Below are positions 1-5,963 of a DNA stretch of 10,874 nucleotides, in pieces. Position 1 is the first letter of the stretch; the number at the start of each line of letters is the position of its first letter. Below the pieces are notes generated by a model. That model was given only the letters and a program-made list of their open reading frames with translations. It was not told the origin of the DNA and searched no databases. Source of the stretch: Alistipes sp. GTDB lineage: Bacteria; Bacteroidota; Bacteroidia; Bacteroidales; Rikenellaceae. The stretch covers positions 1 through 10,874 of the forward strand of contig JAFYQY010000135.1 in NCBI GenBank assembly GCA_017559685.1, in the 5' to 3' direction. The position numbers and the translations under genes were made by a program.

Positions 1-45
1 AGATAGGATTAGATAGGATTAGATAGGATTAGATAGGATTAGATA
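1..45 (-). repeat. Tandem 10-bp repeat, inverted decamer array
   Basis: The unit AGATAGGATT occurs four times without error (1-40), followed by half a unit (41-45); the array probably continues beyond the left edge. Read on the minus strand, the unit is AATCCTATCT, that is TCCTATCTAA in another register. This closely resembles the TCCTATCAAG/A decamer that dominates 61-180 and 794-870. The left array is therefore best seen as the same element family in the opposite orientation. The 10-bp period is close to one DNA helical turn. Function is unknown. Confidence 0.9.
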
Positions 46-60
46 CACTTCCCTATAATC

Positions 61-180
61 TCCTATCAAGCACCGTAGGTGCGCATCCCATCAAGTCCTA
101 TCAAGCCGACTTAGGTCGGCGCATCCCATCAAGTCCTATCAAGCCGACTTAGGTCGGCGCATCCCATCAAATCCTATAAA
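61..180 (+). repeat. Decamer-hairpin repeat array upstream of the four-helix-bundle gene
   Basis: The array is built from the decamer TCCTATCAAG and its variant TCCCATCAAG. Decamers lie at 61-70, 86-95, 96-105, 124-133, 134-143 and 162-171, with a degenerate one at 172-180. Three short hairpins sit between pairs of decamers. The first is GCACC-GTA-GGTGC at 70-82. The other two are GCCGAC-TTAG-GTCGGC, at 105-120 and 143-158. Each is followed by GCAT leading into the next decamer. This gives units of 35 bp (61-95), 38 bp (96-133) and 38 bp (134-171). Units 2 and 3 differ only at the last base. The two stem types differ in sequence but both pair fully, which suggests that the fold is what matters. 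Function is unknown. Confidence 0.92.
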
Positions 181-202
181 AATCAAAAAAAATCCTTCAA
201 AA

Positions 203-234
203 TTTGCCGAATATCCTCAATTGCGCTATATTTG
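203..234 (+). promoter_or_regulatory. Bacteroidetes-type promoter for the four-helix-bundle gene
   Basis: A TTTG at 203-206 (-33 element) is followed after 20 bp by TATATTTG at 227-234, a full match to the Bacteroidetes -7 consensus TAnnTTTG. Both elements and the spacing fit the primary sigma-factor promoter of this phylum. Transcription should start about 4-7 nt after the -7 box, at roughly 238-241, which coincides with the ATG at 240. The promoter starts about 20 bp after the end of the repeat array, so the upstream array should not be part of this transcript. Confidence 0.8.
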
Positions 235-239
235 TAGTA

Positions 240-782
240 ATGGGAGCATTAAACGCAAATACCGGTAGTTATCGTAAGTTGAAGGCCTATCGTAAGGCCG
301 AGGTTATCTACGACCTTACCTACTATTTCTGTAATAAGTATCTGAAATGTGGCGATCGCACTATTGATCAAATGGTGCAAGCGGCTCGTTCGGGCAAGCA
401 GAATATAGTAGAGGGAAACGAGGTCGCCGAGACATCGGCCGAGACTATGCTGAAACTCTTAGGCGTAGCACGAGGTAGTTTGCAAGAGTTATTGGTCGAT
501 TATGAGGACTATCTGCGTGTTCGCAATTTGCGACTATGGGCGGATGATTCCAAAGAGGTGTCAGCCATGCGCAATCTCGGTAAAGAGCATGAGGATAGTG
601 CCTATTTTCTCGAGCTGGCGCAAACTCGTAGTGATGAGGTTGTTGCAAATATGGTTATAGTGCTAATCTATCAGGCCGACACATTGCTCAATGGTTATAT
701 CAAAAGGAAGTATGCCGACTTTCTGAAAGAGGGAGGCTTTCGTGAAAAATTGACACGAGAAAGGAAGCAAAATAGGGGATAG
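240..782 (+). CDS. Four helix bundle protein (S23/IVP family) with C-terminal suffix domain
   Basis: The 180-aa product resembles the four-helix-bundle family first seen as ORFs in 23S rRNA intervening sequences, which also includes the Avd accessory protein of diversity-generating retroelements. Residues about 12-130 carry the bundle, with the family-like stretch QAARSGKQNIVEGN at 47-60 and amphipathic helices after it (for example 67-92). Residues about 135-180 match the 'suffix' seen in Bacteroidetes members, with LIYQADTLLNGYI and FLKEGGFREKLTRER, ending in a basic tail. The start is taken as ATG 240. An in-frame TTG at 204 would lie inside the -33 promoter element and so would not be transcribed. 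The gene stands alone, flanked on both sides by decamer-hairpin arrays. Family members are small, basic and often oligomeric, and nucleic-acid binding is plausible. The actual role is unknown. Family call is fairly firm; function is not. Confidence 0.87.
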   Translation: MGALNANTGSYRKLKAYRKAEVIYDLTYYFCNKYLKCGDRTIDQMVQAARSGKQNIVEGNEVAETSAETMLKLLGVARGSLQELLVDYEDYLRVRNLRLWADDSKEVSAMRNLGKEHEDSAYFLELAQTRSDEVVANMVIVLIYQADTLLNGYIKRKYADFLKEGGFREKLTRERKQNRG

Positions 783-793
783 TAGAGACTCTT

Positions 794-870
794 TCCTATC
801 AAATCCTATCAAGCACCATAGGTGCGCATCCTATCAAGTCCCATCAAATCCCATTTATCCCATAAAATCC
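794..870 (+). repeat. Decamer-hairpin repeat array downstream of the four-helix-bundle gene
   Basis: This is the same element as upstream and in the same orientation, starting 12 bp after the stop codon. Decamers are TCCTATCAAA (794-803), TCCTATCAAG (804-813 and 829-838) and TCCCATCAAA (839-848). Decayed copies TCCCATTTA (849-857) and TCCCATAAAA (858-867) follow. One hairpin, GCACC-ATA-GGTGC (813-825), sits between decamers and uses the 5-bp stem type of the first upstream unit with one loop base changed. No U-tract follows the hairpin, so it is not a normal intrinsic terminator. It could lie in the 3' UTR of the four-helix-bundle mRNA. Confidence 0.9.
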
Positions 871-896
871 GAAAGATATAACTTTTCCGTTCTCAG

Positions 897-928
897 TTTT
901 CCGTTTTCCGTTTTTTTTCTTATCTTTG
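897..928 (+). promoter_or_regulatory. Probable promoter of the nusB-yajC operon
   Basis: TATCTTTG at 921-928 is a full match to the -7 consensus TAnnTTTG. Twenty bases upstream, TTTT at 897-900 can serve as a weaker -33 element (consensus TTTG). The predicted transcript starts near 933 and leaves a leader of about 30 nt, rich in A and T, before the nusB ATG at 966. The octamer TTTTCCGT occurs three times in this area (883-890, 897-904, 904-911), overlapping the -33 position. Confidence 0.7.
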
Positions 929-2475: not shown

Positions 2476-2509
2476 ACTCTAACGACTCTAACGACTCTAA
2501 CGCCTCTAA
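2476..2509 (+). repeat. Short 9-bp tandem repeat upstream of the GH3 gene
   Basis: ACTCTAACG is repeated three times without error (2476-2484, 2485-2493, 2494-2502), followed by a partial copy, CCTCTAA (2503-2509). It lies 38 bp before the GH3 start codon and 19 bp after a run of eight G (2449-2456), so it is probably in the 5' leader. A short in-frame reading through it would encode Asn-Asp-Ser repeats, but nothing supports translation. Copy number could vary by slippage. Confidence 0.85.
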
Positions 2510-2547
2510 TAAAAAAGCAAAATACACACTAACCAATAAAAATTATT

Positions 2548-4781: not shown

Positions 4782-5963
4782 ATGAAAAAAGTTATATCCT
4801 TCTCGTTGATGCTGATGCTCGGACTTGCGCTGTCGCAATTTCTTCCGAAGCTTATGGGCGACTCGTATGGCGAGTTGAAACATATGGTCGAGGTTGCGCT
4901 CGGTGTTTGCTTGGCATTTATTATGATAAATGTAGGCCGTGAGTTCGAGATTGACAAATCAAACGTCAAGGTATATGTCAAGGACTACCTCGTGGCGATG
5001 TTGGCTGCGGCGTTGCCGTGGATATTTATCGCTGTCTACTATATCTTTGCACTTATGCCACAGGAGTTCTGGGGCGAGGGCGAGACCTGGAAGGAGTCGC
5101 TCTTGTTGAGCCGTTTTGCAGCACCTACTTCGGCAGGAATTCTATTCTCGATGTTGGCGGCAATGAAGTTGCAGAAGAGCTGGATATACCAGAAGGCGCA
5201 GACATTGGCTATCTTCGACGACCTCGACACCATTATCTTGATGGTGCCGTTGCAGATAGCGATGATTGGCGAGGCGAATTGGCAGATGATGGCTATGCTT
5301 ACGGCTATCTTCGGAATGTTCTTCATCGGCTGGAAGTATATGTCTCGCTTCGAGATGCCACAGGAATGGTATGCGATATTCACATACGCCGTGTTTGTAT
5401 ATGGTGCGACATACCTTATCTATACCGTTACACACCACTTCTTTGGCGATAGGGGAGCAATCCATATCGAGGTGCTCCTGCCTGCCTTTATCTTTGGTAT
5501 GGTCATCAAAAATCAACACGTCGAGGGTAAGAGCGAGGAGCGAGTATCGTTGCTTATCTCGGTTGTCTTTATGCTCCTTGTGGGTATGAGTATGCCACTT
5601 ATCGACTTTGATACAACAGCCACAGCGGGCGAGTCGGAGAGCCTTCTTGCGACTATCCCGATGATGTCGGGCTGGCAGATTGCGCTCCACGTATTGGTGG
5701 TGACCGTTTTGTCGAACTTGGGTAAGTTGGCACCGATGTTGTTCTATCGTGACCGCTCACTCACCGAGCGTTTGGCCTTGTCGGTCGGAATGTTCGCACG
5801 AGGAGAGGTTGGTGCAGGCGTTATCTTTATCGCCCTTGGCTACAATATCGGAGGCCCTGTACTCTTGATTTCGGTCTTGACCTTGGTTGCAAACCTTATC
5901 CTTACCATAGGCTTCGTCTATTGGGTTAAGCACTTGGCGATTAAGGCTGAGAGTAAGAGATAA
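4782..5963 (+). CDS. Cation:proton antiporter (CPA2-like, Na+/H+ exchanger fold)
   Basis: The 393-aa protein is almost entirely membrane-embedded, with about a dozen hydrophobic segments (for example 33-51, 69-91, 171-186, 198-216, 256-272, 299-314 and 357-385). IFDDLDTIILM (144-154) holds an acidic pair, Asp146-Asp147, at the place where CPA2 antiporters keep their ion-binding Asp pair. SRFAAPTSAGILFSML (110-125) resembles the unwound-helix region before it, and FARGEVGAGVIF (338-349) resembles the late conserved helix with its Arg/Gly motif. It probably exchanges Na+ or K+ for protons across the inner membrane. No RCK/TrkA-type regulatory domain follows, since the protein ends shortly after the last helix. 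The gene is monocistronic, lying between two terminators. Ion specificity cannot be read from the sequence. Confidence 0.85.
   Translation: MKKVISFSLMLMLGLALSQFLPKLMGDSYGELKHMVEVALGVCLAFIMINVGREFEIDKSNVKVYVKDYLVAMLAAALPWIFIAVYYIFALMPQEFWGEGETWKESLLLSRFAAPTSAGILFSMLAAMKLQKSWIYQKAQTLAIFDDLDTIILMVPLQIAMIGEANWQMMAMLTAIFGMFFIGWKYMSRFEMPQEWYAIFTYAVFVYGATYLIYTVTHHFFGDRGAIHIEVLLPAFIFGMVIKNQHVEGKSEERVSLLISVVFMLLVGMSMPLIDFDTTATAGESESLLATIPMMSGWQIALHVLVVTVLSNLGKLAPMLFYRDRSLTERLALSVGMFARGEVGAGVIFIALGYNIGGPVLLISVLTLVANLILTIGFVYWVKHLAIKAESKR

Follow-up and report, generated by a model that had tools for sequence, protein, structure and literature searches.

A four-helix-bundle gene between arrays of its own short repeat in Alistipes: a probable REP-like mobile element

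Introduction

The start of a contig from Alistipes sp. raises the question of why a single small gene should lie between two matching arrays of a short repeat, and whether gene and arrays form one unit that moves. The window, that is, the whole stretch of DNA that was analysed, comprises 10,874 nt of contig JAFYQY010000135.1 (assembly GCA_017559685.1), and the unit under study occupies window positions 1-868. The initial annotation of this DNA compared the arrangement with REP palindromes on both sides of a RAYT gene and guessed at a small mobile or REP-like element.

RAYT genes are described as being always flanked by two inverted REPs, with which they coevolve, and as encoding a Y1/HUH transposase domain (PMC2817692), the REPs being described as palindromes of 20-40 nt with a tag, GTAG or CGTC, at one end (PMC3733652). 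Regarding the S23 family, PMC4990558 describes an rRNA intervening sequence (IVS) that is 428 nt long, has inverted repeats at its ends and contains an S23 ORF; it calls this sequence selfish, cites earlier authors who once proposed a mobility role for the ORF and reports that the protein of the insert is apparently not made in vivo. Moreover, PMC11270868 describes IVP ORFs from inserts in the 16S and 23S rRNA of CPR bacteria, and PMC2670836 short tandem hairpin-forming repeats (STRR) from filamentous cyanobacteria. In the openly licensed literature, surveyed by title and start of abstract, no link was found between free-standing four-helix-bundle (4HB) genes and short-repeat arrays.

Results

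The Alistipes locus

To begin with, the whole window was scanned for the decamer TCCYATCAAR with at most one mismatch, which gave 15 matches, every one of them inside positions 1-867, for an expectation of 2.0 (sd 1.5; maximum of 7 in 200 shuffles). The features of the unit, and two further arrays in the window, were the following:

1-45, minus strand: inverted decamer copies AGATAGGATT (AATCCTATCT on the minus strand), the G-rich outer half of the left dyad (three minus-strand matches)
46-60, no strand: centre of the left dyad, CACTTCCCTATAATC (sequence)
61-181, plus strand: left decamer array TCCYATCAAR with three hairpins at 70-82, 105-120 and 143-158 (pattern, self-comparison, folding)
61-70, 86-95, 96-105, 124-133, 134-143, 162-171 and 172-181, plus strand: forward decamers of the left array (pattern match)
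70-82, 105-120, 143-158 and 813-825: perfect short hairpins separating decamer pairs (read from the sequence)
240-782, plus strand: 4HB suffix-domain gene, 180 aa, with TIGR02436 at residues 16-85 and TIGR04258 at residues 132-179
783-868, plus strand: right decamer array with one hairpin (813-825), the right end of the unit (pattern, self-comparison, folding)
794-803, 804-813, 829-838, 839-848 and 858-867, plus strand: forward decamers of the right array (pattern match)
883-914, plus strand: gene-less heptamer array TTTTCCG, TTCTCAG, TTTTCCG, TTTTCCG, family D7 (sequence, self-comparison)
2476-2511, plus strand: gene-less nonamer array, ACTCTAACG three times and then CCTCTAATA (read from the sequence)

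A 65-nt block recurs in the two arrays with 86% identity (positions 40-104 versus 783-847), and with the 15 decamers and the hairpins this bears out the initial description of decamer and hairpin arrays on both sides of a single small gene. Their orientation, given there as the same, is indeed the same for 61-181 and 783-868, but the inverted copies at 1-45 had been missed. These copies make a dyad of the left flank. Loci L001, L003 and L004 have the corresponding left end as well, and in L003 the arrays are preceded by a centre (CTCTTTCCTATAATC) resembling positions 46-60. The start of the unit probably lies before window position 1. Folding was pronounced on the plus strand (z = -6.8 for 61-180 and -3.4 for 790-870) and unremarkable on the minus strand (z = -1.1 and -0.3, respectively). 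As regards the two gene-less arrays, likewise overlooked at first, that at 883-914 probably belongs to a different, suffix-less family, to which it was assigned by its period, while that at 2476-2511, whose nonamers resemble the right flank of L137, is probably the array of another suffix family.

The unit is followed on its 3' side by nusB, its neighbour, and by yajC, a GH3 hydrolase and gyrA. The 393-aa protein encoded at 4782-5963 matched nothing in Pfam or NCBIfam at E <= 0.001 and is membrane- and antiporter-like by eye. A scan of the window with Rfam at gathering thresholds detected no family and no rRNA, and with nusB next to the unit an insertion inside an rRNA gene is not what is found here. 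Furthermore, no reverse transcriptase is present among the eight annotated proteins of the 10.9-kb window, unlike the setting of Avd in a diversity-generating retroelement (DGR), and the DGR reading was rejected for this reason. The earlier statement that neither setting fits the locus therefore stands.

The four-helix-bundle protein

The window protein matched PF05635, TIGR02436, TIGR04258 and, weakly, NF008912 at E <= 0.001, the score for TIGR04258 (4helix_suffix) being 61.7 bits for a cut-off of 40, and its predicted structure has the S23 fold (pLDDT 88.5). It thus fits the S23/IVP four-helix family, to which it had been assigned at the outset, by both profile and fold. The Y1/HUH transposase domain (Pfam Transposase_17) was not detected in the profile search at E <= 0.001, and membership of the RAYT family was rejected on that ground. 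To our knowledge, no nuclease or recombinase chemistry is known for the 4HB S23 fold. The structure matches include 8ub7, in which the protein is a binding partner of the DGR ribonucleoprotein rather than an enzyme; the matched chain is presumably the Avd-type subunit. A sequence search of the PDB with the window protein gave four weak matches, among them 2gsc at E 0.41. The entries of the two solved relatives contain five chains each.

Four polar residues, Gln44, Asn55, Glu58 and Glu83, were invariant in 55 suffix-less and 41 suffix proteins. The latter are the 41 sequences of the structure alignment, from which L008, L011, L012, L016, L017, L019, L027, L032, L040, L042, L043 and L052 were excluded, as were L020, L033 and L055 because of stops. 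The family is widespread: 7,967 of 8,000 candidates scored with the window protein as query matched, and TIGR02436 is carried by at least 114 of the 148 sampled Bacteroidota genomes. Phage records gave no match to the window protein, and plasmid records gave one, from Prevotella nigrescens, whose right flank self-matched at 0.75 at lag 9 and whose left flank had no array; this match was excluded from every count.

Arrays at 4HB genes and their orientation

A GTDB protein search provided 55 loci, of which the closest to the window are from Alistipes MAGs. The four closest orthologues (L001-L004) keep the decamer arrays, an outcome opposite to the loss in most close relatives that had been named as evidence against the unit. 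By eye, most 4HB genes lay between short tandem repeats with a lineage-specific sequence, little array being seen in L034, L039 and L047 of the Akkermansia group. At a short lag, 36 of the 55 upstream flanks and 27 of the 53 downstream ones matched themselves at 0.72 or more, as did 3.4% of 978 control windows.

The association was then measured with 84 distinct 4HB matches, reduced to 78 suffix genes once fragments were removed. The same 8-mer occurred in at least five copies on each side of 29 of the 78 genes and in one of 152 control ORF flanks. With at least four copies the counts were 37/78 and 5/152, with at least three 50/78 and 34/152, and with at least two there was no discrimination (75/78 and 143/152). 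A stricter array score was passed by 10 of 12 suffix-less and 49 of 76 suffix genes of the first sets, compared with 19 of 314 control windows. It was passed by 9 of 30 suffix-less genes in the fresh Bacteroidota sample and 4 of 27 suffix genes in that of the Verrucomicrobiota, which indicates that arrays in the fresh samples are often short or decayed.

Inverted arrays had first been expected at every unit, an expectation given up because the orientation at suffix genes is mixed. Among 76 of them, repeats were direct at 31, inverted at 20, tied at 15 and too few at 10. For 15 cyanobacterial genes, 10 were inverted, two direct and three had too few copies; at L182, L191 and L192, counted among the inverted ones, the scored 8-mer differs from the heptamer. 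Some arrangements were also seen in passing. In three loci of cyanobacterial plasmids (L183, L185 and L190), suffix-less 4HB genes lie within CRISPR operons, twice as cas6-4HB-cas4 and once as cas10-4HB-cmr3. A near-identical terminator-like hairpin stands on each side of the unit in L042, possibly a long target duplication, and the 3' end of a uvrA-like gene (by eye) flanks the unit of L015 on each side and lies upstream of that of L016.

Repeat period and protein type

Suffix-less TIGR02436 genes had been intended as a negative control, a use that was abandoned, and the conclusion changed, when these genes also proved to be in arrays, with a period of 7. With the period measured as the best repeat lag in the 100-nt flanks of a gene, suffix genes had a best lag of 9 in 51 and of 10 in 22 of 78 cases (9-10 in 73/78), and merging lineages at 70% identity left 28 of 30 at lag 9 or 10. 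Suffix-less genes in the genomes of the first suffix-less set had a best lag of 7 in all 12 cases. Two fresh samples, made up of best-scoring rather than random loci and retaining rows with doubtful starts (such as L219, L221, L237 and L251), were then compared. The best 30 suffix-less Bacteroidota loci from 148 genomes gave lag 7 in 19 and lag 8 in 8, while suffix genes of Verrucomicrobiota (194 genomes searched; 27 of 30 loci usable, three being without an ORF) gave lag 9 in 14, lag 10 in one and lag 7-8 in six of 27. On cyanobacterial plasmids, 15 of the 24 records with a suffix-less match were taken, where the lag was 7 in 13 and 8 in two; away from the gene, at the same loci, lag 7 was best in only 6 of 108 windows. 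In total, 54 of 57 suffix-less genes had a lag of 7-8.

Control ORF flanks (n = 219) had best lags of 6 in 43, 7 in 33, 8 in 20, 9 in 47, 10 in 19, 11 in 21 and 12 in 36, with peaks at multiples of three, so that 9-10 accounted for 66 and 7-8 for 53. Fisher tests against these flanks gave p = 0.001 for lag 9 in Verrucomicrobiota and p = 6e-8 for lag 7 among the fresh suffix-less loci. The repeat period therefore tracks the protein type, being 7-8 nt without the suffix and 9-10 nt with it, more weakly in Verrucomicrobiota.

Repeat family, protein and host

Moreover, the sequence of the arrays follows the protein. For pairs from different genomes, the mean cosine between flanks was 0.02 below 40% protein identity, 0.05 at 60-70% and 0.44 at 80% or more (n = 37), these shared flanks being partly inherited, as many of the 37 close pairs sit at orthologous places. 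Pairs from the same genome with less than 70% protein identity had a cosine below 0.15 in 45 of 47 cases (maximum of 0.29), and the two same-genome pairs above 70% gave 0.67 and 0.30. Array families thus go with protein types, and sharing a genome does not lead to similar arrays. As known for RAYTs and REPs, repeat and protein coevolve here, part of the signal being inheritance at orthologous loci.

Filled and empty sites

The clearest site was a junction on Nostoc plasmids, represented by 10 records, the nine others being 79-96% identical to the query record. Five of the 10 are empty, with three bases between stop and ATG and no array. In pC052_D and pNsp_a the junction holds 420 bases, a net 417, and this 417-bp unit consists of AATCAGGAGTCAG-type heptamers on the left, the 4HB gene and inverse heptamers on the right, with no other annotated gene. 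A unit with the same ends is found at the junction in pNPM1, where it amounts to 602 bases and its 4HB gene is split by some 170 bases; the interrupting stretch (L261:733-903) contains heptamers of this kind too, as though a gene-less array had landed in the gene. The two remaining records (L263 and L264) hold other sequence with different small ORFs, and the junction may therefore be an insertion hot spot. In pNsp_c the next junction contains a unit from another heptamer family, and no unit is present there in the eight further records that were compared.

In Alistipes, the junction between a ddl-like gene and the gene that follows (labels by eye) contains the full unit in genome G002 and nothing in G004 or G005. 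In G001 it contains a gene-less form of about 50 bp that keeps both outer ends, either a remnant or a gene-less copy, and in G003, where the upstream gene is different, there is no unit. G002 has a second copy of the unit elsewhere, 82% identical, and the homology between the two starts within 2 nt and stops within about 16 nt of the outer arrays.

Gene-less arrays gave a similar picture. The decamer site L114 of G001 adjoins a GroEL-like gene (by eye). Both of its flanks match in G002 and the right one alone in G004 and G005 (among the matches listed), and none of these three genomes has decamers at this place, which in G002 and G005 is occupied by other short repeats. For the gene-less site L107 the same was seen in G003 and G004 (among the matches listed), which is weak evidence because the right flank alone matches. 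No clear target-site duplication was found at the sites compared; the candidate TTCTA, in two of the three filled Nostoc records (L260 and L261), is confounded by the array. On a separate note, the orientation of the unit relative to the same neighbour gene is opposite in L007, L008, L009 and L032 versus L011 and L040, as if it had been flipped between the arrays.

Filled and empty versions of a site, which mark a mobile element, are thus found for related units and arrays and not for the window copy. The precise presence or absence of the whole unit, which the initial annotation had proposed to look for, was obtained for related units (five empty and three filled records in Nostoc, and the ddl-like junction) and not for the copy in the window itself. 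At the level of sequence comparison, this supports the mobility of related units.

Movement of the window's own copy was considered from its position in G003, where the unit lies about 4 kb from nusB, beyond the antiporter gene, instead of upstream of nusB. In L003 and L127 (both G003), the orientation of the segment from nusB to the antiporter gene with respect to the 4HB unit is the reverse of that in the window and in L004. The 4HB gene adjoins related surface-type proteins (24-34% identical) in L003, L004 and G005, those upstream of it in L003 and L004 having no nucleotide match to each other. Given these related neighbours, inversion of the segment with nusB and movement of the unit are equally likely, and the position was not counted as evidence.

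Dispersed gene-less arrays

Paired decamers of the window type gave at least 50, 15, 51 and 49 matches in G001, G002, G003 and G004, respectively, the control with the pattern read backwards giving three in G004 and none in the other genomes (among the matches listed). They were absent from G005-G007 (among the matches listed), whose 4HB genes have other flanking repeats. In G004, about 36 decamer sites (counted by hand from the match list; 20 regions were retrieved) accompany a single detected TIGR04258 gene, which is bracketed. Of 42 decamer clusters in the retrieved regions, six were centred in an ORF of at least 100 aa, with an ORF coverage of 61%; the gene-less clusters are mostly intergenic and often dyad-shaped. 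Many decamer arrays of G004 (L086-L105) are part of larger mosaic cassettes, delimited by GGGAACTCCGAAGGTGGTCAAGGCGCAA and TGCGC, in which 9-mer arrays from other families are nested as well.

Other families behaved variably. All six matches to GGCNAGTAA in G002 flank the cognate gene, as do 6 of 17 in G005 (among the matches listed for both), while G004 has at least 160 matches and no cognate gene detected. Similarly, TGCCATT arrays are present in G001 and G004 with no cognate gene detected. As most of the genomes are draft MAGs, the missing genes may be gaps, or losses. Heptamers of one Nostoc family were found on 10 of the 11 cyanobacterial plasmid records searched, with many matches away from the 4HB gene. 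Arrays scattered independently of 4HB genes had been named as an outcome against the unit; scattered they are, in gene-less copies, but the genes detected for these families remain bracketed, as with RAYTs and REPs.

Discussion

The first guess of a REP-like mobile unit gained support from the general association of arrays with 4HB genes, from the gene-less copies and from the presence and absence of related units. Positions 1-868 of the window are probably one copy of a small mobile element, a 4HB gene between terminal arrays of its own repeat, and the best reading is an element like RAYT and REP whose only gene encodes a 4HB protein that reads one repeat per subunit. That arrays plus a 4HB gene can suffice as a mobile unit, and that the period changes with the subfamily, makes it most likely, judging from these comparisons, that the protein reads the repeats. 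Under such a mechanism the protein would act as an oligomer with one subunit laid on each repeat, much as TRAP binds trp RNA, and the suffix protein, being larger, would need a longer repeat. The oligomer would then join the ends of the arrays and thereby cause transposition or copying, the mobilisation being, we infer, by the protein itself. The chemistry could come either from the 4HB protein alone, through an unrecognised site around Gln44, Asn55, Glu58 and Glu83, or from a recruited host nuclease or polymerase; action on RNA is a further possibility. Gene-less arrays would stand to the full units as REPs do to RAYTs, being non-autonomous copies or products of internal deletion.

Among the alternatives, the one that survives best, although we consider it unlikely, makes the gene a passenger: an unrelated transposase acting in trans, or replication errors, would move the unit, and the 4HB protein would merely be an autoregulator or silencer that binds the arrays, hence the coevolution. 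The absence of a clear target-site duplication, the mixed orientation at suffix genes and the structural match to a DGR binding partner (8ub7) instead of an enzyme all suit such a regulator. It fits poorly with the Nostoc unit of 417 bp without any other annotated gene, with a period that follows the 4HB type even within single genomes, and with the four polar residues invariant in both subfamilies; moreover, paralogues of one genome have different arrays, unlike the outcome of a shared outside transposase.

A second alternative, already disfavoured and held to be very improbable, is that arrays arise and spread alone, by slippage or recombination, and that 4HB genes insert into arrays that exist beforehand. 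Arrays far outnumber detected genes in some genomes and several array families are nested in G004, as this would predict, but the five empty Nostoc records have no array, the filled ones have arrays and gene together, and every GGCNAGTAA match of G002 (among the matches listed) stands beside a gene of that type. Lastly, chance intergenic repeats or an artefact of composition, for which it speaks that arrays are common in these genomes, that some control windows reach the threshold and that control flanks favour lags 6, 9 and 12, an effect to be expected from codon structure, are judged refuted by the controls, 4HB flanks being enriched over control flanks and the fresh samples showing the expected periods in the Fisher tests.

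Returning to an element mobilised by its own 4HB protein, its nearest likeness is with the RAYT/REP/REPIN/BIME group related to IS200/IS605, as described in PMC2817692: a gene bracketed by its own repeat, dispersed gene-less copies and coevolution. Unlike there, the protein here has the 4HB S23 fold, with no Y1/HUH domain detected, and the repeats are arrays of 7-10 nt units with optional hairpins instead of palindromes of 20-40 nt. Regarding MITEs and other non-autonomous inverted-repeat elements, the gene-less arrays resemble them in being short, mostly intergenic and often dyad-shaped, but their autonomous partner lacks any known transposase domain. Classical STRRs are heptamers. The arrays found here on cyanobacterial plasmids are of the same sort and from the same group as the STRRs, to which no protein is tied in the literature surveyed, as far as PMC2670836 describes them. 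With the 23S rRNA IVS, as described in PMC4990558, the units share the protein superfamily, terminal inverted repeats and size (428 nt versus 417 bp for the Nostoc unit), and the rRNA setting looks like a relative; in contrast, the units described here are located between protein-coding genes, their termini are short-period arrays, and gene-less copies of them are dispersed.

A broader proposal can be put forward tentatively, as a possibility and not as the expected outcome. S23/IVP proteins might be a new class of transposition proteins without a known transposase, integrase or reverse transcriptase domain, forming a ring that takes one 7- to 10-nt repeat per subunit and pairs the ends of the arrays, with chemistry by the Gln-Asn-Glu-Glu set. 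STRR-type arrays and the 7- to 10-mer arrays of Bacteroidota would then be their footprints, and rRNA intervening sequences special insertions.

If true, this would give a function to a widespread protein family whose role has so far been unknown, and it would explain the short tandem repeats across cyanobacterial and Bacteroidota genomes while tying them to rRNA intervening sequences. It would also define a mobile element that, at about 420 bp, has a single gene and lacks any known recombinase. Finally, the period rule, 7-8 nt without and 9-10 nt with the suffix domain, would be a simple and testable code between protein and repeat.
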